From Candidatus Roizmanbacteria bacterium GW2011_GWA2_35_19 (GTDB taxonomy: Bacteria; Patescibacteriota; Microgenomatia; UBA1406; GWC2-37-13), in contig LBQC01000001.1 of the NCBI GenBank assembly GCA_000990565.1, positions 56,401 through 101,728 on the forward strand: a stretch of DNA of 45,328 nt, written 5' to 3'. The translations under genes and the position numbers were made by a program. The notes under the pieces were generated by a model, which worked only from the letters and a program-made list of their open reading frames with translations, had not been told where the DNA came from and searched no databases. Below are positions 24,880 to 37,122 of the stretch, in pieces. Position 1 is the stretch's first letter. Each line of letters begins with the position of its first letter.

Positions 24880-25791
24880 TTATTTTTCTTTCAACCCGTT
24901 TCCGGTAAGAATTAGGACAACTTTTAATGAATATATTTTGCTTTTTATTAGCGCTGCTAAGGTTGCGGCGGCCGAAGTTTCAACATATATCCCCTCGGTT
25001 TTGGCTAGGAGATTTTTTGCTTTTAAAATTTCACCATCGTTAACAGACAGGATCATTCCGTTTGTTTCTTTAACCCAATTTAAAGTCAATCTTCCGTCGA
25101 GTGGTGCGCCAACTTTCATGGCTGAGGCAACTGTTTGAGGCACTTCGATTAATCGAAGTGTTGGTGAATTTTCTTCCCAAGTCTGGGTTAAAGGATCAGA
25201 CCCTTTTCCTTGAACGCCAATAAATTTTGGCCATTTATCTTTTTCAATAAACCCTTCAATGATTGCGCAACCGAGAGTGCCATTTCCAACAGGGACAACA
25301 AAAGCATCAAAGTCAATCCCTGACACTGCTAATTCGCGACCGAGTGATCTTTGACCAAGTCGTCTTAATTCATAGTCGCCACAAAGTAAATAATTATTTT
25401 TTTCTGCGATCTCTTTGGCTTTTTTTACACATAAATCATAGTTTCCATTTATTTCTATTATTTTTGCTCCACATGCAATTGTTTGCAGAAGCTTTCCTAG
25501 GGGAGTACCACTTGGCACAACAACAAGACATTTGAGCTTAGCTCTGGCGGCATAGGCGGATAAGCTCGCCGCCATGTTACCTGTTGATGCGCAAACAACT
25601 CCCTTTTTACTTCTTTTTAAAGCTTCGGAGACTTCTGTAATACTACCCCTATCTTTAAAAGACCCTGTTGGATTTTGGTATTCAGCTTTTACCCAAATTT
25701 CTCCTCTCCAATCTAAAAACTTCTCTAAATTAAAGAGTCGAAATATAGGAGTATTACCTTCGCCCATTGAAATTTGACCAAGGTTTTTCAT
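24880..25791 (-). CDS. Threonine-synthase-like PLP lyase (fold type II)
   Basis: A 303-residue fold-type-II PLP protein. The PLP lysine is Lys46 in YQNPTGSFKDRGS; the phosphate-binding region is VCASTGNMAASLSAYAARA; VVPVGNGTLGCAIIEGF and TGNGLKEK near the end are typical of ThrC-type enzymes. It is shorter than most threonine synthases (about 350 or more), and no homoserine pathway gene is nearby, so another beta/gamma-replacement or dehydratase role is possible. It starts in an ATGA overlap with the ammonia-lyase gene. An 18-bp palindrome (25142-25159), found twice more in the window, lies within its coding sequence and encodes TLRLIEVP. Confidence 0.78.
   Translation of the reverse strand: MKNLGQISMGEGNTPIFRLFNLEKFLDWRGEIWVKAEYQNPTGSFKDRGSITEVSEALKRSKKGVVCASTGNMAASLSAYAARAKLKCLVVVPSGTPLGKLLQTIACGAKIIEINGNYDLCVKKAKEIAEKNNYLLCGDYELRRLGQRSLGRELAVSGIDFDAFVVPVGNGTLGCAIIEGFIEKDKWPKFIGVQGKGSDPLTQTWEENSPTLRLIEVPQTVASAMKVGAPLDGRLTLNWVKETNGMILSVNDGEILKAKNLLAKTEGIYVETSAAATLAALIKSKIYSLKVVLILTGNGLKEK
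25142..25159. repeat. Palindrome ACTTCGATTAATCGAAGT, copy 1 (in the thrC-like gene)
   Basis: Perfect 18-bp palindrome, extended to 20 bp by a flanking C/G pair (25141-25160). Identical 18-mers occur at 27524-27541 and 40597-40614. Confidence 0.9.
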
Positions 25792-27350
25792 AATGGTTTT
25801 ATTAAATCCATCGGTTCACTTAACGGTCCGATTGTTTTTTCGACAATTGATACTAATTTTTCTGACTCGATTAAATCGAAAATGTCTTTGACCATTGTGT
25901 ACATGATCCTATCTTTTTTTATGTAGGGGACTTTTTCTCTGATTAATTGATATGCGGCCAATATTCCTTTCCCTGGTTTTTTTCCTTTTTTGAAATCCAA
26001 TGCCTGACATCCGAGCATTAACTCGATTGCCAATACATATCTTGTGTTTCTAATAATCCTTAGAATTTTTAAAGCGGCATTGGTGCCCATTGAGCAATCA
26101 TCTTCCTGGCCGGCTGATACCGGAATGGAATCAACAATACCCGGGTAACAAAGAATTTTATTTTCATTTACTAATGCTGCCGATGCGTACTGAGGCATCA
26201 TGAATCCAGAATTTAATCCTCCAGACTCGATAAGAAATGCCGGCAAGATTTTGCTGTAATACGGATTGTTCATTCTTTCTTGTCTGATCTCTGAACTGTT
26301 GGCATACTCCTGTATTGCTTGAGCCATTGTCTCAAGTGGCATACAGATTGGTTGACCGTGAAAATTACCACCCGATAAAACTTCCTTTGTATCTATAAAA
26401 ACTAATGGATTATCCTGAGCAGCATTAATCTCTGTTTCAAATTGACGCTTAATCCAAAGCAAAGCTTCGCGACTGGCGCCAAGGATAACCGGAGCGCAGC
26501 GGATAGAGTAAGCATCTTGGACTCGCTGAGGGGGAGCGGCAAGAATTTCGCTTTGCTTCATAAGCATTCTTAAATTCTTGGCGGCAATGATTTGCCCATT
26601 AAACCTTCGGGCTTTGGCGATTTTTTCGTCAAGTGCTTGGAAAACTACCTCTATTGACTCCATTGTCATTGCGCAGGCGATCTCTGAGATTTTCGCGAGC
26701 TGTAAGGCATCATATAATTCAAGACTCCCCATTCCGGCCATGAAAGTATCGCCATTTATAAGAGCTAAACCTTCTTTTGCTTGAAGCTTAAGTAAAGGGA
26801 TCCAGGCTTTTTTCATCGCCAGTCGGCCTGGCATTCTTATGCCTTTATAAAATGCTTCACCCTCACCAATCATTGGCAAAACCATCATGGCAAGAGGCGC
26901 CAAGTCTCCACTTGACCCGACTGATCCTTGTTCAAGAATCATCGGGGCTACTTTTTTATTAAGCATTTCAACTAGAGTTTCCAAAAGAATGGGTCGGCCC
27001 CCCGACATACCTGATGCCAGATAATTTGCTCGGCACAACATTGTTGCCCTGACAATATCTTCACGAGCAGGGTCTCCAATTCCGGTACTGTGACTTAAAA
27101 TTAGATTAAGTTGCAATTGGGCCGCTTTTTCCGGATCAATAAATACTTGAGAAAATTCTCCGAAACCAGTTGTCACCCCATATATTTTTTCCTTATTATT
27201 TATTTTTTCCTGCAAAATGTCATAGCCCTTTTTACTTTTTTTTGCCGCATCTTTTCCGATTTCAACAATCGCATAATCACGCGCTACAGCTTTTATCTGC
27301 TCAATTGTTAAATTCCGACCTGTCAATACGACCTTATTTACTTTTTTCAT
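25788..27350 (-). CDS. Histidine ammonia-lyase family (MIO) enzyme
   Basis: A complete 520-residue aromatic-amino-acid ammonia-lyase. Tyr57 lies in YGVTTGFG, the MIO cofactor triad is in GSVGSSGDLAPLA (Ser146-Ser147-Gly148 rather than the usual Ala-Ser-Gly), followed by LSGGNFHG, RQERMNNPYYSKILPAFL and SAGQEDDCSMG. The substrate-selectivity pair after NLIL is Ser86-His87, the HAL form, rather than the Phe-Leu or His-Leu seen in PAL or TAL. HAL converts histidine to urocanate and ammonia. No hutU, hutI or hutG is nearby; it instead heads an operon of three PLP enzymes. The preceding leader looks like an attenuator, which is odd for a degradative enzyme. HAL is the best call; an aminomutase or other MIO enzyme is possible. 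Confidence 0.88.
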   Translation of the reverse strand: MKKVNKVVLTGRNLTIEQIKAVARDYAIVEIGKDAAKKSKKGYDILQEKINNKEKIYGVTTGFGEFSQVFIDPEKAAQLQLNLILSHSTGIGDPAREDIVRATMLCRANYLASGMSGGRPILLETLVEMLNKKVAPMILEQGSVGSSGDLAPLAMMVLPMIGEGEAFYKGIRMPGRLAMKKAWIPLLKLQAKEGLALINGDTFMAGMGSLELYDALQLAKISEIACAMTMESIEVVFQALDEKIAKARRFNGQIIAAKNLRMLMKQSEILAAPPQRVQDAYSIRCAPVILGASREALLWIKRQFETEINAAQDNPLVFIDTKEVLSGGNFHGQPICMPLETMAQAIQEYANSSEIRQERMNNPYYSKILPAFLIESGGLNSGFMMPQYASAALVNENKILCYPGIVDSIPVSAGQEDDCSMGTNAALKILRIIRNTRYVLAIELMLGCQALDFKKGKKPGKGILAAYQLIREKVPYIKKDRIMYTMVKDIFDLIESEKLVSIVEKTIGPLSEPMDLIKPL

Positions 27351-28261: not shown

Positions 28262-28549
28262 ATGTCAAGCTTTCAGCCATATAAACCTAGAAACACGAAA
28301 GAGAAGACACTAGCTAAATCCTTTTTAAAATTAAAAAATGAACAAGACGTTGCAAATTTTTTAAGGGATATCTTGACCATTAAAGAATTAGAGGAATTTG
28401 CGAACCGGCTAGAAATGGCGAGGCTTTTAAAGAAAGGTTGGTCATACAAAAAAATCGCTCGTGAATTAAAGGTTTCGACAACTACGGTAACCCGTACGGC
28501 ACACTGGTTATATAGAGGGTGTGGGGGATATGATAAGGCACTTAAATAA
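28262..28549 (+). CDS. YerC/TrpR-superfamily DNA-binding protein
   Basis: A 95-residue helix-turn-helix protein: DVANFLRDILTIKELEEFANRLEMARLLKKGWSYKKIARELKVSTTTVTRTAHWLYRGCGGYDKAL. This is the YerC/YecD form of the TrpR superfamily, ending in the usual W...G.GGY. It differs from the second family member at 36838-37083, which has the true TrpR-like GVATVTRGS helix. The target is unknown. It is 3 bases after the retropepsin gene and probably in the same transcript. Confidence 0.85.
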   Translation: MSSFQPYKPRNTKEKTLAKSFLKLKNEQDVANFLRDILTIKELEEFANRLEMARLLKKGWSYKKIARELKVSTTTVTRTAHWLYRGCGGYDKALK

Positions 28550-29842: not shown

Positions 29843-30850
29843 ATGTCAAATAAAATAATTAGAACGATATGTTATTTTCAGAAAGAACCAAATGAGGAAG
29901 TATTCCAAAAGCTAGATAATTTAGAAAAATTATTTAAAGAAAAAGGATTTGAAGTTCAAACAAAACGTCTTAATTCTCCCAATATTAGTAAAGTAATAGA
30001 ATTAGATAATATTTACGCAGCTAAAGGATATTTTTTGTCTGTTGGATCTGCCGCTAAGGAAGAAGTAATTAAACTTTCAAATTCTAACAACATTGCTTTC
30101 AATATTAATTTAACAAATAAACCTCTCGACTTAGATGAAGTAGATATTTTATTTAACATTATTAAAAATAATTCCACTAAGACATTTAATTTTACTTACG
30201 TTTTCAACAATCCTGTATCTAGTCCTTTTTTTCCGGCTGCAAATTACGGAAGAGACGGCTTTTCAATTGGTTTACAGCCGACGAACTTAGCTGAAGGTTG
30301 TACTGAGACAAAACAATGGTTAGGTAAAATGAAAGTAACATGGACCGAAATAACTCAGCTGCTAGCAACAAATGAAGAATTTATTGGAATCGATTCTTCT
30401 ATTGCTCCTTTTAGAGCTGGTAACTCCAGTTTAGTTAATTTCATTCGGAAGTTATCTGGAACTTTTGAAAAGTCAGTGACAACAAATATTTATACTCAAA
30501 TAACTGAATTTATAAAAAAAGAAAACCCAAAACCAGTTGGCCTTTGCGGATTAATGTTTCCTTGTCTTGAGGATTTTGAATTAACTGATGAATATGAAAA
30601 GGGTAATTTTTCTATAGAAAGAAATATTTATCTATCATTACATAGTGGTGTGGGAATTGACACATATCCAATTGGAATTGATGAAAAACCTGAGAGAGTT
30701 TTGGAAATATTGAAATTAATTCAAAATTTATCTAATAAATTTAAGAAGTCGTTGTCCGCCCGTTTTGTATCAGACGGAAAGTCTAAAATTGGTGAGAAAA
30801 CTAATTTTAAAAGTAAATATTTAAAAGATACAATTATAAAACCATTATGA
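29843..30850 (+). CDS. DUF711 (UPF0210-like) protein
   Basis: A 335-residue protein with the DUF711 hallmarks IGIDSSIAPFRAG, GLCGLMFPCLEDFEL and SLHSGVGIDTYPIGID. The family has a glycyl-radical-enzyme-like fold but no known reaction. It overlaps the cyclase gene by an ATGA junction, so the two are co-translated and probably work in the same pathway. Lys/Asn-rich composition is like enzyme B at 21759-23255. No membrane segments. Confidence 0.82.
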   Translation: MSNKIIRTICYFQKEPNEEVFQKLDNLEKLFKEKGFEVQTKRLNSPNISKVIELDNIYAAKGYFLSVGSAAKEEVIKLSNSNNIAFNINLTNKPLDLDEVDILFNIIKNNSTKTFNFTYVFNNPVSSPFFPAANYGRDGFSIGLQPTNLAEGCTETKQWLGKMKVTWTEITQLLATNEEFIGIDSSIAPFRAGNSSLVNFIRKLSGTFEKSVTTNIYTQITEFIKKENPKPVGLCGLMFPCLEDFELTDEYEKGNFSIERNIYLSLHSGVGIDTYPIGIDEKPERVLEILKLIQNLSNKFKKSLSARFVSDGKSKIGEKTNFKSKYLKDTIIKPL

Positions 30851-31371
30851 AAATAATAGATTTATCCCAAGAGCTTTATGATCAAATGCCGGTTTACCCC
30901 GGCGATCCGGAAGTAATAATAAAAGAAATCCATACATTGGACAAGGAAGGATGGAACTTAAGAAGCATGGCTTTTACAACTCATATAGGTACCCATGTCA
31001 ATGTCCCATATCATATGGTTAAAGGAGGAAAGAAATTGGATAAATTTGCTTTGGATAATTTCTTTGGCAAAGCAGAACTTTATAAAGAAGGAATGAAATT
31101 TTATCGAAATAAAGGGGTGATTTTTTCATCGTGCAATATTGATAAGAAAATTGCCAATGACTTAATCAAATTCCCACCAAAATTCATCGGTCTTTCGGAA
31201 AAATTTGAATTTGATATTACTCTTGAAAAATTACTTCTTGAGAAAGGGATTATATCTTTTGAAAACCTGACTAATGCCGATATACTTCCTTCAGAATTTA
31301 CATATTATGGAGTACCATTGAATATTAAAGAAAGCGACGGTTCACCAGTTCGCGCATTTGCAATAGTTTGA
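30847..31371 (+). CDS. Cyclase / kynurenine-formamidase-like metal hydrolase
   Basis: A 174-residue member of the cyclase family (Pfam Cyclase; KynB-like). The metal motif is HIGTHVNVPYHM, the H.GTH.D.P.H pattern with Asn in place of the usual Asp. YPGDPEV near the start and PSEFTYYGVPLNI near the end are also typical. The family opens amide or lactone rings with Mn or Zn. It is shorter than KynB (about 205). Its neighbour is DUF711, not tryptophan-degradation genes, so kynurenine is not established as substrate. Confidence 0.8.
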   Translation: MKIIDLSQELYDQMPVYPGDPEVIIKEIHTLDKEGWNLRSMAFTTHIGTHVNVPYHMVKGGKKLDKFALDNFFGKAELYKEGMKFYRNKGVIFSSCNIDKKIANDLIKFPPKFIGLSEKFEFDITLEKLLLEKGIISFENLTNADILPSEFTYYGVPLNIKESDGSPVRAFAIV

Positions 31372-33011: not shown

Positions 33012-34472
33012 TTATAACAATCCCATCTTTTCTTTAACTTCTTTTACAGTTTCTCTTGCAATTTTACGGGCGCGGTCGGCTCCGTCTCTGATCACTCCAT
33101 CGACATAATTTTTGTCAGCAGCGATTTTGGCCCGTCTTTCTTGAAAAGGTTTTAGGTCGGCATATATTGCTTCGGCGATGGCGTCTTTAATTTTTACAAA
33201 TTGTAATGTCCCGTCATTAAATTCTTTTTTATACCTATCCGTGACGGCCGGAAGGAATAGGTTAGCAAAAGCAAAAAGTGATTTTAATCCTGGTGACATT
33301 TCTCCGCCAGCTGAGGTTGCGGTTGGAACAGAACGGATTTTTTTCCTAATTTCTTCAAGTGAATCCGTTAAGTTAATAAAACTATTTGCAACAGTTTTAC
33401 TCATTTTTCCCTCACCAGTCAATGACGGAATGTATTCACCTTTAGTCGCAAATCTTACTGGCTCGGGGAAATCTGTCCCGTAAAGTTGGTTCATTTTTCG
33501 AGCGATTTCTCGTGTTACTTCCAAATGTGGCTCCTGGTCTATACCGACAGGCACTAATCCTGCCTTATAAATTAAAATGTCAGCCGCCATTAAAATCGGA
33601 TAGTTTAAAAGTGCCATAGTATTGGCGTTTGGATGCTGCTTAACTTTTTCTTTGTACGTTGGTAGGTGCATCATCCTGGCAATTGTTTCGACTGTTGAAA
33701 AATAAAAAGCAAGCTCAATATGCTCGGGAATATCGGATTGGTAAATAATGATACTTTTTTTTGGATCAAGACCGGCCGCTAGATAATCAATAATAATTTC
33801 TCTTTTATTTTTAGCGAGCGCTTTTTTATCGTAAGGCGTTGTAATTGAATGGATGTCGACCACACAATATACAGTTTCATATTTACCTGTTTTTTCCAGC
33901 TCGAGGAATCCTTTGACTGCTCCCAAATAATTGCCTAAATGCAATCGCCCAGTTGCTCGGATTCCTGAAAAAACTCTTTTTACCGACTTAAGGTTTGTTA
34001 CTTCTTCAATTTCCGACGTGATGTCCACTATTTGAATATTTGGTAGTTTTTTAAGATCTTTAGATAAACATCGGAATGTTGTACTTAAACTACCAGTCCC
34101 ACCTAGAATAGTTTTCTTTTCAAAAACTTTTTTGTCTATATAGGTTTTTACATTTTCAACATAAAATCTTGCTGTGCCGATTTCAAGTCCTGTTACCTGA
34201 TTAAACTCTTCAGGTGTGGCAATTTGTAGTTCAGAAATTCCTAATAATTTCTTTATTTTCTTAAAAGAAATTTTTGTCACGTCTCGCCTAAGCACAGCGA
34301 TATAATTTTTATCGGCTTTCATGATCAAGGTCGCCACGCTATCGTTCAGTGTATAGCCCAATTGAGCAACGACATCAGCCGCCTCAACTAAAGAGTCATG
34401 TTCAAGGATCTTATTTTTAATTCCCAACTCGGTCATTTTTTTTGAATATTCCAGAGACATTTTGTCTATCAT
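33012..34472 (-). CDS. trpS: Tryptophanyl-tRNA synthetase with N-terminal YbaK/ProX-like editing domain
   Basis: Residues 1 to about 155 resemble YbaK/ProX deacylases: EADVVAQ-type helix, KADKNYIAVLRRDVTKISFKKIKKLLG, TGLEIGTARFYVENVKTYIDKKVFEKKTILGGTGSLSTTFR. From about residue 163 it is a class I TrpRS: SGIRATGRLHLGNYLGA (HIGH-like HLGN), PILMAADILIYKAGLVPVGIDQEPHLEVTREIA, and GKMSKTVANS (KMSKS). Trans-editing domains of this type clear mischarged tRNA (Pro/Ala/Cys cases are known); fusion to TrpRS is unexpected. A perfect TATAAT (34485-34480) lies 7 bases before the ATG at 34472, so the transcript should be leaderless and this start is favoured over the ATG at 34460. Confidence 0.9.
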   Translation of the reverse strand: MIDKMSLEYSKKMTELGIKNKILEHDSLVEAADVVAQLGYTLNDSVATLIMKADKNYIAVLRRDVTKISFKKIKKLLGISELQIATPEEFNQVTGLEIGTARFYVENVKTYIDKKVFEKKTILGGTGSLSTTFRCLSKDLKKLPNIQIVDITSEIEEVTNLKSVKRVFSGIRATGRLHLGNYLGAVKGFLELEKTGKYETVYCVVDIHSITTPYDKKALAKNKREIIIDYLAAGLDPKKSIIIYQSDIPEHIELAFYFSTVETIARMMHLPTYKEKVKQHPNANTMALLNYPILMAADILIYKAGLVPVGIDQEPHLEVTREIARKMNQLYGTDFPEPVRFATKGEYIPSLTGEGKMSKTVANSFINLTDSLEEIRKKIRSVPTATSAGGEMSPGLKSLFAFANLFLPAVTDRYKKEFNDGTLQFVKIKDAIAEAIYADLKPFQERRAKIAADKNYVDGVIRDGADRARKIARETVKEVKEKMGLL

Positions 34473-34607: not shown

Positions 34608-35320
34608 CTATTTTGCATAATAGTAATCCACGATTGCCTCGGCCAGGACTTCGTCGGAATCGATGGTTTTTTCGCCTAATGCTTCGTAATTAATAGCTTG
34701 AGGTAATTCAGTACAACCGAGAATAATATTTTCGGCGCCGTAATCGTACATACTATGAAGTAAGGCGATATACTCCTTTTTTAGAAATAGATTATTTACC
34801 CCGGCAAGAATTTCTCTAATGATTGATTCAGAAATTTCTAACTGTTTACTATTAGGTAGTATTACCTTAACTCCGTAATTTTTTAACTCTTTTTCATATA
34901 GCCCGGATTTGACTTGACTAGGACAGGACTGCCAAGTAATCCCACGGTTTTTATTTTTTTCTTTGAGACATTCTTACTGACTTCTGTAATGACCGAAATA
35001 AAGTCAACCGCTGTATGATTTTCTAATTCTTTGAGCAATATATGAACAGTATTACTGGCAATTGCTAACTTTGTCGCTCCAGCGACTTCAAGTGTTTTAG
35101 CAGACTTTATTAGCATTCCCTTGGCTTTTTCAATATTTTTTTTGTTACCAATAAAATCGGGAATTGGCAAAGATTCAAATATTAGATATGGGAAATCATC
35201 GTTATTTTTTGCTCCATATTTAGCTTGAGAAAACTCAATAATCTTTTTGTAAATAAAATTAGTTGACTGTGGGCCAACGCCTCCGATGATGCCGATTTTT
35301 TTGTTATTAATTTTTTTCAT
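34608..35320 (-). pseudogene. Aspartate/glutamate racemase family protein, frameshifted
   Basis: From 35320: KKIGIIGGVGPQSTNFIYKKIIEFSQAKYG ... DDFPYLIFESLPIPDF ... the first-Cys region reads LAIASNTVHILL, with Ser where the family has Cys (CNT.H). The frame breaks near 34905 after VLVKS. In another frame the protein continues through YEKELKNYGVKVILP ... YGAENIILGCTELPQAI (second catalytic Cys present) to TAG at 34608. Joined, it is about 237 residues, the normal size. A gain or loss of a few bases in a TCAAGTCAAATC stretch would explain the break. Even if repaired, it would be a one-Cys racemase-like protein, as known for some family members such as YgeA. Confidence 0.82.
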
Positions 35321-35338
35321 AATATTTTATATATAAAT

Positions 35339-36646
35339 TTATAACTGATTATGCAAAAATTTGTCATAACCGTTAAGATCTAGTAAACCGTGCCCGGAAA
35401 GATTAAATAGAATTACTTTTTTCTTTCCTTCCTCGCGAGCTTTAACCGCCTCATCCATGGCTGCTTTTATTGCATGAGATGACTCAGGGGCGGGAATAAT
35501 TCCCTCAGCCTTGGCAAAATCAACTCCAGCTTTGAAAACTAGGCTTTGCTCATAAGCGACTGCTTCAATTAATTTTTCGTTATACAGAAAAGAAATTTGA
35601 GGGGCCATACCATGATAGCGAAGTCCTCCAGCGTGAATCGGGGATGGGACGAAGCCGCTTCCCAAGGTGTACATTTTTAATAGCGGGGTCATTTGAGCCG
35701 TGTCACCAAAATCATATTCGTACTTACCTTTTGTCAGTGACGCACAAGACATAGGTTCAACGCCAACAAATCTGGTTTTATTTTTGTTCTTCAATTTATC
35801 TGCAAGGAATGGAAAAGCGATGCCGGCAAAATTACTTCCGCCGCCGACGCATCCGATAATAATATCTGGATATTCTTCTGCCTTCACCATCTGTTTTTTT
35901 GCCTCTTGCCCAATAACTGTTTGATGAATTGAAACAAAGTTCAAAACACTCCCGAGCGAATATTTTGCACCTTTAGTTTTAGAGACAGTTTCAAGTGCCT
36001 CGCTGATGGCAATTCCCAGGCTTCCGTTATGATTTCGATTTCCGGCCAATATTTTTTTACCAAAATCAGTTTTTTCTGAAGGACTGGCAAAGACATCGGC
36101 TCCGTACATTTGCATCACAGTTTTCCGGTATGGTTTTTGATCGTAGGAAACTCTAACCATAAATATCTGGCATTTTAATCCGAAATAATTACAAGCCAAG
36201 CTTAAAGCCGATCCAAACTGACCGGCCCCGGTCTCTGCAATAAGAGTTTTTACTCCTTCCTTTTTGTTGTAATATGCCTGGGCAATAGTCGTATTTAATT
36301 TGTGAGCTCCAGTAGGTGAGACACCCTCATATTTATAATAAATATGTGCGGGGGTATCTAAAAACTTTTCTAATCGGTAGGCTCTAATAAGCGGTGTTGG
36401 CCTATAAAGTTTATATAACTCCCTGACTTCATCAGGTATGGCGATTTTTTCATCAAGTGAAACCTCCTGCTTTATTAATTCCATTGGAAATATTGCTGAT
36501 AGGTCAGCCGGGCCCGCAGGTTGCTTAGTCACAGGATTTAAGGGCGGGTCGGGTAATTTTCCTAAGTACTTTTTTAAGTAATAGGAAATATTTATATAAT
36601 ATTGTGGGATCTCTGATTCTGAAAGTGTAAAATTTGTATGTTTCAT
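35339..36646 (-). CDS. trpB: Tryptophan synthase beta chain, TrpB2 type
   Basis: A 435-residue TrpB2-type enzyme, which condenses indole with serine (or phosphoserine) to tryptophan. The PLP lysine is Lys116 in SPTGAHKLNTT; ETGAGQFGSALSLA, VGGGSNFAGIAFPF, GGLRYHGMAPQIS and ESSHAIKAA are diagnostic. The long N-terminus with YLGKLPDPPLNP is typical of TrpB2 rather than TrpB1. No trpA or other trp synthesis genes are present here, so it may salvage indole. It is preceded by a leader peptide with three Trp codons and an attenuator, and further up by a TrpR-type repressor gene, so its expression should track tryptophan supply. The racemase remnant follows 18 bases later. Confidence 0.95.
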   Translation of the reverse strand: MKHTNFTLSESEIPQYYINISYYLKKYLGKLPDPPLNPVTKQPAGPADLSAIFPMELIKQEVSLDEKIAIPDEVRELYKLYRPTPLIRAYRLEKFLDTPAHIYYKYEGVSPTGAHKLNTTIAQAYYNKKEGVKTLIAETGAGQFGSALSLACNYFGLKCQIFMVRVSYDQKPYRKTVMQMYGADVFASPSEKTDFGKKILAGNRNHNGSLGIAISEALETVSKTKGAKYSLGSVLNFVSIHQTVIGQEAKKQMVKAEEYPDIIIGCVGGGSNFAGIAFPFLADKLKNKNKTRFVGVEPMSCASLTKGKYEYDFGDTAQMTPLLKMYTLGSGFVPSPIHAGGLRYHGMAPQISFLYNEKLIEAVAYEQSLVFKAGVDFAKAEGIIPAPESSHAIKAAMDEAVKAREEGKKKVILFNLSGHGLLDLNGYDKFLHNQL

Positions 36647-36657
36647 ATATTTTTTCT

Positions 36658-36720
36658 GTCATCCCGAGGAAATGAAATGTAATGACGCTTCGCTAGATTT
36701 CTCACTATGTTCGAAATGAC
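36658..36720. repeat. Palindromic repeat copy E, between attenuator and trpB
   Basis: A 63-bp element with ends GTCATCCCGA and TCGAAATGAC and the internal CGCTAGATTTCTC word shared with the sufS and femX copies. It lengthens the region between the terminator and the trpB start. Confidence 0.8.
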
Positions 36721-36738
36721 AATTAAACTAATAATTAA

Positions 36739-36767
36739 TAAAAAAACCTCTGCTTGAAGCAGAGGTT
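36739..36767 (-). terminator. trp attenuator terminator
   Basis: Minus strand AACCTCTGC-TTCAA-GCAGAGGTT (36767-36745), a perfect 9-bp stem whose 3' arm runs into seven T. It lies between the leader peptide and trpB. The segment CCTCTG-G-TGAAGCAG (36800-36786) can form about 14 pairs with CTGCTTCA-AG-CAGAGG (36762-36747), which would destroy this hairpin. That upstream segment overlaps the last Trp codon and the stop codon of the leader peptide. Confidence 0.9.
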
Positions 36768-36790
36768 AACCCATCAAAAAATCATCTGCT

Positions 36791-36841
36791 TCACCAGAGG
36801 CTATCTGTCCACCAATTATTTGAATTTATTTTGTCTTTCAT
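36791..36841 (-). CDS. trpL: trp leader peptide (16 residues, three Trp)
   Basis: MKDKINSNNWWTDSLW, from the ATG at 36841 to TGA at 36793-36791. Trp codons are tandem at positions 10-11 and again at 16, just before the stop. The start codon overlaps the stop codon of the TrpR-type gene (ATGA), so translation should pass on from it. A ribosome stalled on the tandem Trp codons (36814-36809) would leave 36800-36786 largely free to form the antiterminator; one reaching the stop codon would cover it and let the terminator fold. Position, composition and secondary-structure logic all agree. It is too short for ordinary gene finders. Confidence 0.88.
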   Translation of the reverse strand: MKDKINSNNWWTDSLW

Positions 36842-37083
36842 ATTTTTTTAAATCTTCCCATTCTAATTTCCCTTGACCCTCGAGTCACCGTTGCCACCCC
36901 GACCTTAAGTCGGCGGGCGATCTCTTGGTGGGGGAGGCCTTTTTTCAAAAGTTTAACAATTTGCAAACGGGTAACTATTTCGTCAAACTCACTAGGTGTC
37001 AAAATACCTCTCAAAAAATCAAGCATTTCGGTTTTTGACTTTTGTTTCAAAAAAGCCTCGACCAACTCCCCCACTTTGTTCAT
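36838..37083 (-). CDS. trpR: TrpR-type tryptophan repressor
   Basis: An 81-residue helix-turn-helix protein: LDFLRGILTPSEFDEIVTRLQIVKLLKKGLPHQEIARRLKVGVATVTRGSREIR. The LTP...E...R..IV..LL.G..(S/P)(Q/H)(R/Q)E segment followed by G.ATVTRGS matches E. coli TrpR (GIATITRGS) more closely than YerC proteins. It should bind DNA when loaded with tryptophan. The start is the ATG at 37083; an in-frame ATG at 37098 lies within the -10 box and is unlikely. An ACTAGT-type palindrome overlaps its promoter, suggesting autoregulation. It is co-transcribed with trpL and trpB. Confidence 0.87.
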   Translation of the reverse strand: MNKVGELVEAFLKQKSKTEMLDFLRGILTPSEFDEIVTRLQIVKLLKKGLPHQEIARRLKVGVATVTRGSREIRMGRFKKI

Positions 37084-37093
37084 CCTAAATACT

Positions 37094-37122
37094 ATCATAC
37101 TAGTACACTATTAATTTGTCAA
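37094..37122 (-). promoter_or_regulatory. trpR promoter with TrpR operator-like palindrome
   Basis: Minus strand TTGACA (37122-37117), 17-base spacer, TATGAT (37099-37094), an almost perfect sigma-70-type promoter. TACTAGTA at 37105-37098 is a perfect palindrome that overlaps the -10 box; ACTAGT is the core half-site of the E. coli trp operator. The trpR ATG is 11 bases after the -10 box, so the transcript has almost no leader. Confidence 0.8.

Follow-up and report, generated by a model that had tools for sequence, protein, structure and literature searches.

This study concerns a 45,328-nucleotide stretch of the genome of Candidatus Roizmanbacteria bacterium GW2011_GWA2_35_19 (contig LBQC01000001.1, positions 56,401 to 101,728), referred to below as the window, and in particular the interval on its minus strand between trpR, a gene of the Trp repressor family, and trpB2, which encodes a TrpB2-type tryptophan synthase beta chain. 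An earlier reading made from the letters alone (the sequence-only reading) had placed a Trp attenuator here, in a genome guessed to belong to the candidate phyla radiation (CPR); this guess agrees with a TrpR scan of named genomes, in which the nearest relatives were mostly Candidatus Roizmanbacteria. The parts of the locus, from 5' to 3', are as follows.

36838..37083, minus strand: trpR, encoding a protein of the Trp repressor family, 81 aa when counted from the ATG at 37083 (PF01371, E=4e-18, 65.7 bits, cut-off 27)
36791..36841, minus strand: Trp leader peptide frame MKDKINSNNWWTDSLW*, 16 codons, read from the sequence
36809..36814, minus strand: TGGTGG, tandem Trp codons, assigned as the sensing codons because P(terminator) goes from 0 to about 1 once the A site is past them
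36785..36800, minus strand: antiterminator strand CCTCTG-G-TGAAGCAGA, which pairs with both terminator arms and covaries with the terminator across loci
36745..36767, minus strand: intrinsic terminator hairpin, 10 pairs with a 3-nt loop
36740..36746, minus strand: terminator T tract, 7 T, read from the sequence
35339..36646, minus strand: trpB2-type tryptophan synthase beta, the attenuated gene (NF009057, 683 bits, cut-off 366; TIGR01415, 628 bits, cut-off 519)

The leader frame runs as ATGAAAGAC...CTCTGGTGA from ATG to TGA (minus strand 36841-36791), shares bases of its ATG with the trpR TGA as ATGA, and contains three TGG codons, namely the tandem pair at 36814-36809 and a single codon at 36796-36794. 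The Trp-rich frame of 16 residues, the three Trp codons and the overlap with the trpR stop that the sequence-only reading had described are all present. When both strands were scanned, this was the single site in the window at which a short frame containing at least three Trp codons lies just 5' of a terminator, and none of 40 Markov-simulated windows contained a Trp-rich short frame preceding a terminator. Two alternative structures 5' of a Trp gene would also be expected of a different kind of RNA sensor, for example a T-box or a leader bound by a protein, but no Rfam family was matched in the leader at the gathering score and no T-box or Trp_leader match appeared up to E=10, so that this explanation deserves almost no credence.

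The terminator is composed of AACCTCTGCT-TCA-AGCAGAGGTT (36767-36745; -14.2 kcal/mol), and the antiterminator is formed by 15 pairs, in which CCTCTG is matched with CAGAGG and TGAAGCAGA with TCTGCTTCA. A 9-bp stem followed by seven T had been described at first, together with a competing segment of about 14 pairs; the T run and the competition stand, with a stem of 10 pairs if the basal A-U pairs are counted and a competing pairing of about 15. The leader RNA as a whole folds at -27.2 kcal/mol (z -2.68). With a ribosome stalled on the first Trp codon, the remaining free RNA (36800-36745) folds into the antiterminator at -24.2 kcal/mol (z = -3.91 against shuffles), whereas with a ribosome on the stop codon the RNA that is still accessible forms the terminator at -14.4 kcal/mol. 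In a ribosome-position scan, a model ribosome with a 14-nt footprint was moved codon by codon: P(terminator) stayed at 0.00 as far as the first TGG, was 0.66 at the second and reached at least 0.97 further on, and the switch lay at or adjoining the tandem Trp codons with footprints of +11 to +16 nt. Folding with and without a ribosome mask thus supports the geometry proposed from the sequence, in which a stall at the Trp codons leaves the antiterminator strand free and arrival at the stop codon covers it.

Without any ribosome, P(terminator) was 0.003, that is, the RNA alone folds to the antiterminator. According to the folding model, the default state of the window device is on, and turning it off takes a ribosome. 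Four segments of the E. coli form, with a protecting 1:2 hairpin, were not found in the window RNA. The earlier view that three RNA segments suffice holds for the window and may not hold for several relatives, which have a default-terminator profile in the folding model; modelling suggests that several relatives carry an extra protecting hairpin.

Comparison of related genomes extends these observations. Within the genus, a Trp leader and a terminator lie behind trpR at all 14 loci with readable downstream sequence, and Trp leaders were also identified in other genera of the same family, in Levyibacteriota (L071), Peregrinibacteria (L072, L074) and Paceibacterota (L073), as well as in a sample taken across the phylum (L152, L153, L155, L158, L159, L161, L163, L169 and L170). 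The genes guarded in relatives outside the genus include trpB, trpB2, trpE and trpS. Stem sequences vary between relatives, with each leader pairing best with its own terminator: in a swap test of 13 sequence clusters, the summed energy was -274.7 against a permuted mean of -187.0 (standard deviation 16), and 0 of 20,000 permutations were as good. The computed switch was present in 33 of 37 loci and lay no more than one codon from a Trp codon in 25 of these 33, and a ribosome at the stop codon favoured the terminator in all 37. Because related loci are not independent, the test of switch position is given by cluster, each terminator sequence being represented by a single locus; of 21 switches, 20 were at most two codons away from the first Trp cluster (random mean 7.1; 0 of 20,000). 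The sequence-only reading had called for such a comparison, and both the recurrence of Trp-codon leaders and the covariation of the competing stems bear it out.

These results also bear on two other explanations. The hairpin might simply end the trpR message, or might terminate in part and so fix the trpR:trpB ratio, with an incidental Trp-rich frame and control by TrpR alone. Consistent with this, the terminator is a normal intrinsic one, an operator-like site lies in the promoter, and L023 and L025 have a terminator without a Trp leader switch; however, the complementarity between leader and terminator covaries, the switch point follows the Trp codons, and the Trp-rich character of the leaders is kept across loci as the remainder of the peptide drifts, which makes this explanation improbable. 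Alternatively, an arrest peptide of the TnaC kind could bind free Trp and stall at the stop codon over the antiterminator, with high Trp enforcing termination. Many loci do have a Trp codon at the end of the leader or close to it, and a stall at the stop codon also yields termination in the folding model. An arrest motif, however, would be conserved, whereas neither the non-Trp residues nor the distance to the stop is constant between loci, and the switch is located at the first Trp cluster rather than the last Trp; an arrest peptide accordingly appears very improbable. Since the folding results, the scan of ribosome positions and the conservation and covariation seen among relatives all fit, the model-based evidence makes it highly probable that the window contains a ribosome-mediated Trp transcription attenuator inside the operon, between trpR and trpB2.

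The proposed sequence of events would begin at a promoter with a TrpR operator-like site, from which the transcript crosses trpR and reaches the 16-codon leader. Ribosomes finishing trpR would restart at the overlapping ATGA and translate the leader. With charged tRNA-Trp in short supply, they would stall at TGGTGG and leave the antiterminator strand free, so that no terminator forms and trpB2 (perhaps also trpS) would be transcribed; when Trp is plentiful, the ribosome would reach the stop codon and cover the antiterminator strand, and the terminator would form. In such a three-segment version, termination would require an arriving ribosome, which coupling to trpR would supply, and a device that is on by default would in this way give a reason for the ATGA overlap.

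Judged from the ATGA overlap, translational coupling of the leader to trpR is plausible. Overlap of stop and start was found in 12 of 27 leaders (ATGA in eight, an eight-base overlap in four) and a separate start in the remaining 15, with further ATGA overlaps at L152, L155 and L158, so that the overlap appears, at the level of sequence, to be a recurrent rather than a defining trait. The trpR frames of L040 and L157 themselves end in a leader-like tail containing WW, and in L040 the terminator lies 20 nt past the stop of the fused trpR-leader frame. A separate leader, an overlapping start and a trpR frame that runs on would represent a natural series for the capture of a leader by its neighbour.

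Several observations weigh against the attenuator reading. No switch was seen in the folding model for the leaders of L011, L027, L030 and L071; L028, L035, L038 and L044 have the trpR-trpB order without the leader device, and L025 has trpR, a terminator and trpB2 with no predicted switch. Relatives with this gene order that lack the device, which had been named beforehand as evidence that would speak against it, do exist in these five loci (L025, L028, L035, L038 and L044), none of which belongs to the same genus. The 14-nt footprint is an assumption, and P(terminator) at the second TGG ranges from 0.00 to 0.96 with the footprint chosen. In the model, a stall on the recurrent last Trp codon (36796) would favour termination, which leaves a sensor role of this codon unexplained. 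Shine-Dalgarno strength was not clearly different between overlapping and separate leader starts and does not separate the two classes, so that coupling is argued from the overlap itself. Finally, the genome is 86.7% complete, which makes the absence of trpA and trpC reported below uncertain.

Upstream of the leader, the promoter region and trpR contain the following elements.

37094..37122, minus strand: trpR promoter TTGACA-17-TATGAT, 11 of 12 consensus matches
37090..37106, minus strand: TrpR operator-like site GTACTAGTATGATAGTA over the -10 box, conserved 5' of most relatives' trpR

The same promoter lies 5' of nearly all relatives' trpR, and 5' of most trpR genes the operator-like site is kept as RTACTAGTATACTAGTA or a sequence close to it. 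The site GTACTAGTATGATAGTA is similar to the E. coli trp operator. An alternative ATG of trpR, at 37098, falls within the -10 box, and the window TrpR scored below the TIGR01321 equivalog cut-off (50.2 against 67.25). From this arrangement trpR is apparently autorepressed and joined with the leader in one transcript, and, given the conserved trp-operator-like site in the trpR promoter, TrpR repression and attenuation would act in series. In L161 and L169, a trp operator-like sequence TACTAGTATG continues into the leader ATG, which suggests a leaderless, separately repressed Trp leader. A second gene of the TrpR superfamily (YerC-like; window 28262-28549) is present in many genomes of the genus.

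The gene following the leader had been called trpB, and it does encode a TrpB-like enzyme, of the TrpB2 type; its product scores below the cut-off of the canonical TIGR00263. Another Trp gene follows on the same strand and is possibly part of the trpB2 operon.

33012..34472, minus strand: trpS with an N-terminal YbaK-like editing domain (TIGR00233, 272 bits, cut-off 177; PF04073)

No match to the TrpA or IGPS (trpC) models was found in the genome itself (86.7% complete), which suggests that TrpB2 makes Trp from acquired indole. A second trp locus in the same bin (G000 contig C2, L002), with a trpB 91% identical and a Trp leader with a different stem, is probably from a co-binned close relative. 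Between the terminator and trpB2, a palindrome resembling repetitive extragenic palindromic (REP) elements, TGTCATTTCGAAC...GGGATGACAG, occupies window positions 36650-36723, and similar elements were observed in the same interval of L007, L016, L022 and L073. An Asp/Glu racemase-like gene (window 34883-35320) is truncated at 145 aa; since its L002 homologue (772-1479) has 235 aa, the window copy is either frameshifted, a pseudogene or an assembly error. Near the Trp genes lie an aromatic ammonia-lyase-like gene (window 25788-27350), recognised by eye from an ASG-type motif, and an arylformamidase-like gene (window 30847-31371), a neighbourhood hinting at aromatic amino-acid turnover.

A different Trp-codon arrangement was encountered in six other genomes, where a signal AGGGG-N3-GTT-TGG lies directly behind trpR (L020, L021, L033, L052, L071) or elsewhere (L091). 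At the signal, a short frame ends in EG(L/I/S)VW or QGLVW, and the +1 frame that follows on is 212-462 codons long. The candidate +1 frameshift sites are listed below.

L020, site 1566 in reverse-complement coordinates, minus strand: DIT1/PvcA-like enzyme
L021, site 1884: glycosyltransferase-family-3 protein
L033, site 1816: TrpE
L052, site 1792 in reverse-complement coordinates, minus strand: no Pfam match
L071, site 4402: no Pfam match
L091, site 1501: no Pfam match

From 64 distinct motif sites collected, a looser filter passed seven and the frame-geometry filter passed six; L076 and L105 have superficially similar frames and failed the stricter geometry. The +1 frame of L033 aligns to a solved TrpE from residue 9, with the first possible in-frame start only at residue 27, and L071 has both the frameshift signal and a Trp leader with a terminator. 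The strict motif alone was not enriched genome-wide over a reversed control, and a protein search with one frameshifted gene found just one distant homologue; it is solely by position and reading-frame geometry that the putative signal convinces. The candidates share AGGGG(G), three-nucleotide spacing, a slippery NTTT site and a +1 shift with the programmed frameshift of prfB, which consists of AGGGGG, three bases and CTTT, and differ from it in having GTTT instead of CTTT and TGG (Trp) instead of UGA as the slow A-site codon (PMC12421855). In this scheme, a lack of charged tRNA-Trp would let the ribosome slip at GTT-TGG. On balance, it seems somewhat probable that CPR bacteria place interchangeable Trp-codon sensors behind trpR, either the attenuator or a +1 frameshift at a hungry Trp codon that makes TrpE or other enzymes. 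A 2016 review knew of no example of a starvation-triggered frameshift yielding a useful protein (PMC5009743). If true, the frameshift loci would be a natural starvation frameshift with a useful product and would answer the open question of hungry-codon recoding, and this side finding may be more novel than the attenuator.

The attenuation mechanism itself is already known, and it is the variant that is new. As in E. coli trpL, the window combines a short leader with tandem Trp codons, mutually exclusive antiterminator and terminator, and probable TrpR repression at the promoter; unlike trpL, the leader stands behind trpR inside the operon with its start overlapping the trpR stop, relies on three RNA segments and no protecting 1:2 hairpin, and would control trpB2 instead of trpEDCBA. 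E. coli pheM, a leader-peptide attenuator located between rplT and pheST, likewise operates inside an operon behind another gene, but it has Phe codons and, to our knowledge, neither a repressor gene nor a stop/start overlap. A closer parallel in gene order is the trpR-trpL-trpB leader of Chlamydia (an LWWA peptide in C. felis, TrpL in C. trachomatis), which has been predicted but is doubtful and unvalidated; it resembles the window in having a Trp-codon leader in the trpR-trpB interval, downstream of TrpR repression (PMC3937554, PMC7755916). The Chlamydia leaders are long (40-59 aa; PMC3937554, PMC7755916), and the C. trachomatis one lacks tandem Trp and is a poor attenuator according to PASIFIC, YtgR being used by C. 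trachomatis instead (PMC7755916), whereas the window leader is short and overlaps the trpR stop, and its structures covary among many genomes.

Amino-acid leader-peptide attenuation has been reported chiefly from Proteobacteria and Actinobacteria, with some cases in Firmicutes (PMC2965389). No paper linking CPR bacteria with leader-peptide attenuation was found in a literature search that left most subscription papers outside, so that absence is unproven; the novelty claimed by the sequence-only reading is retained to that extent for CPR bacteria, and it is qualified for the trpR-leader-trpB order, which has the predicted Chlamydia precedent (PMC3937554, PMC7755916). Leader-peptide attenuation would be widespread in the ~1 Mb genomes of uncultured CPR bacteria, and an attenuator in such reduced cells would imply coupled transcription and translation together with active sensing of tRNA-Trp charging.
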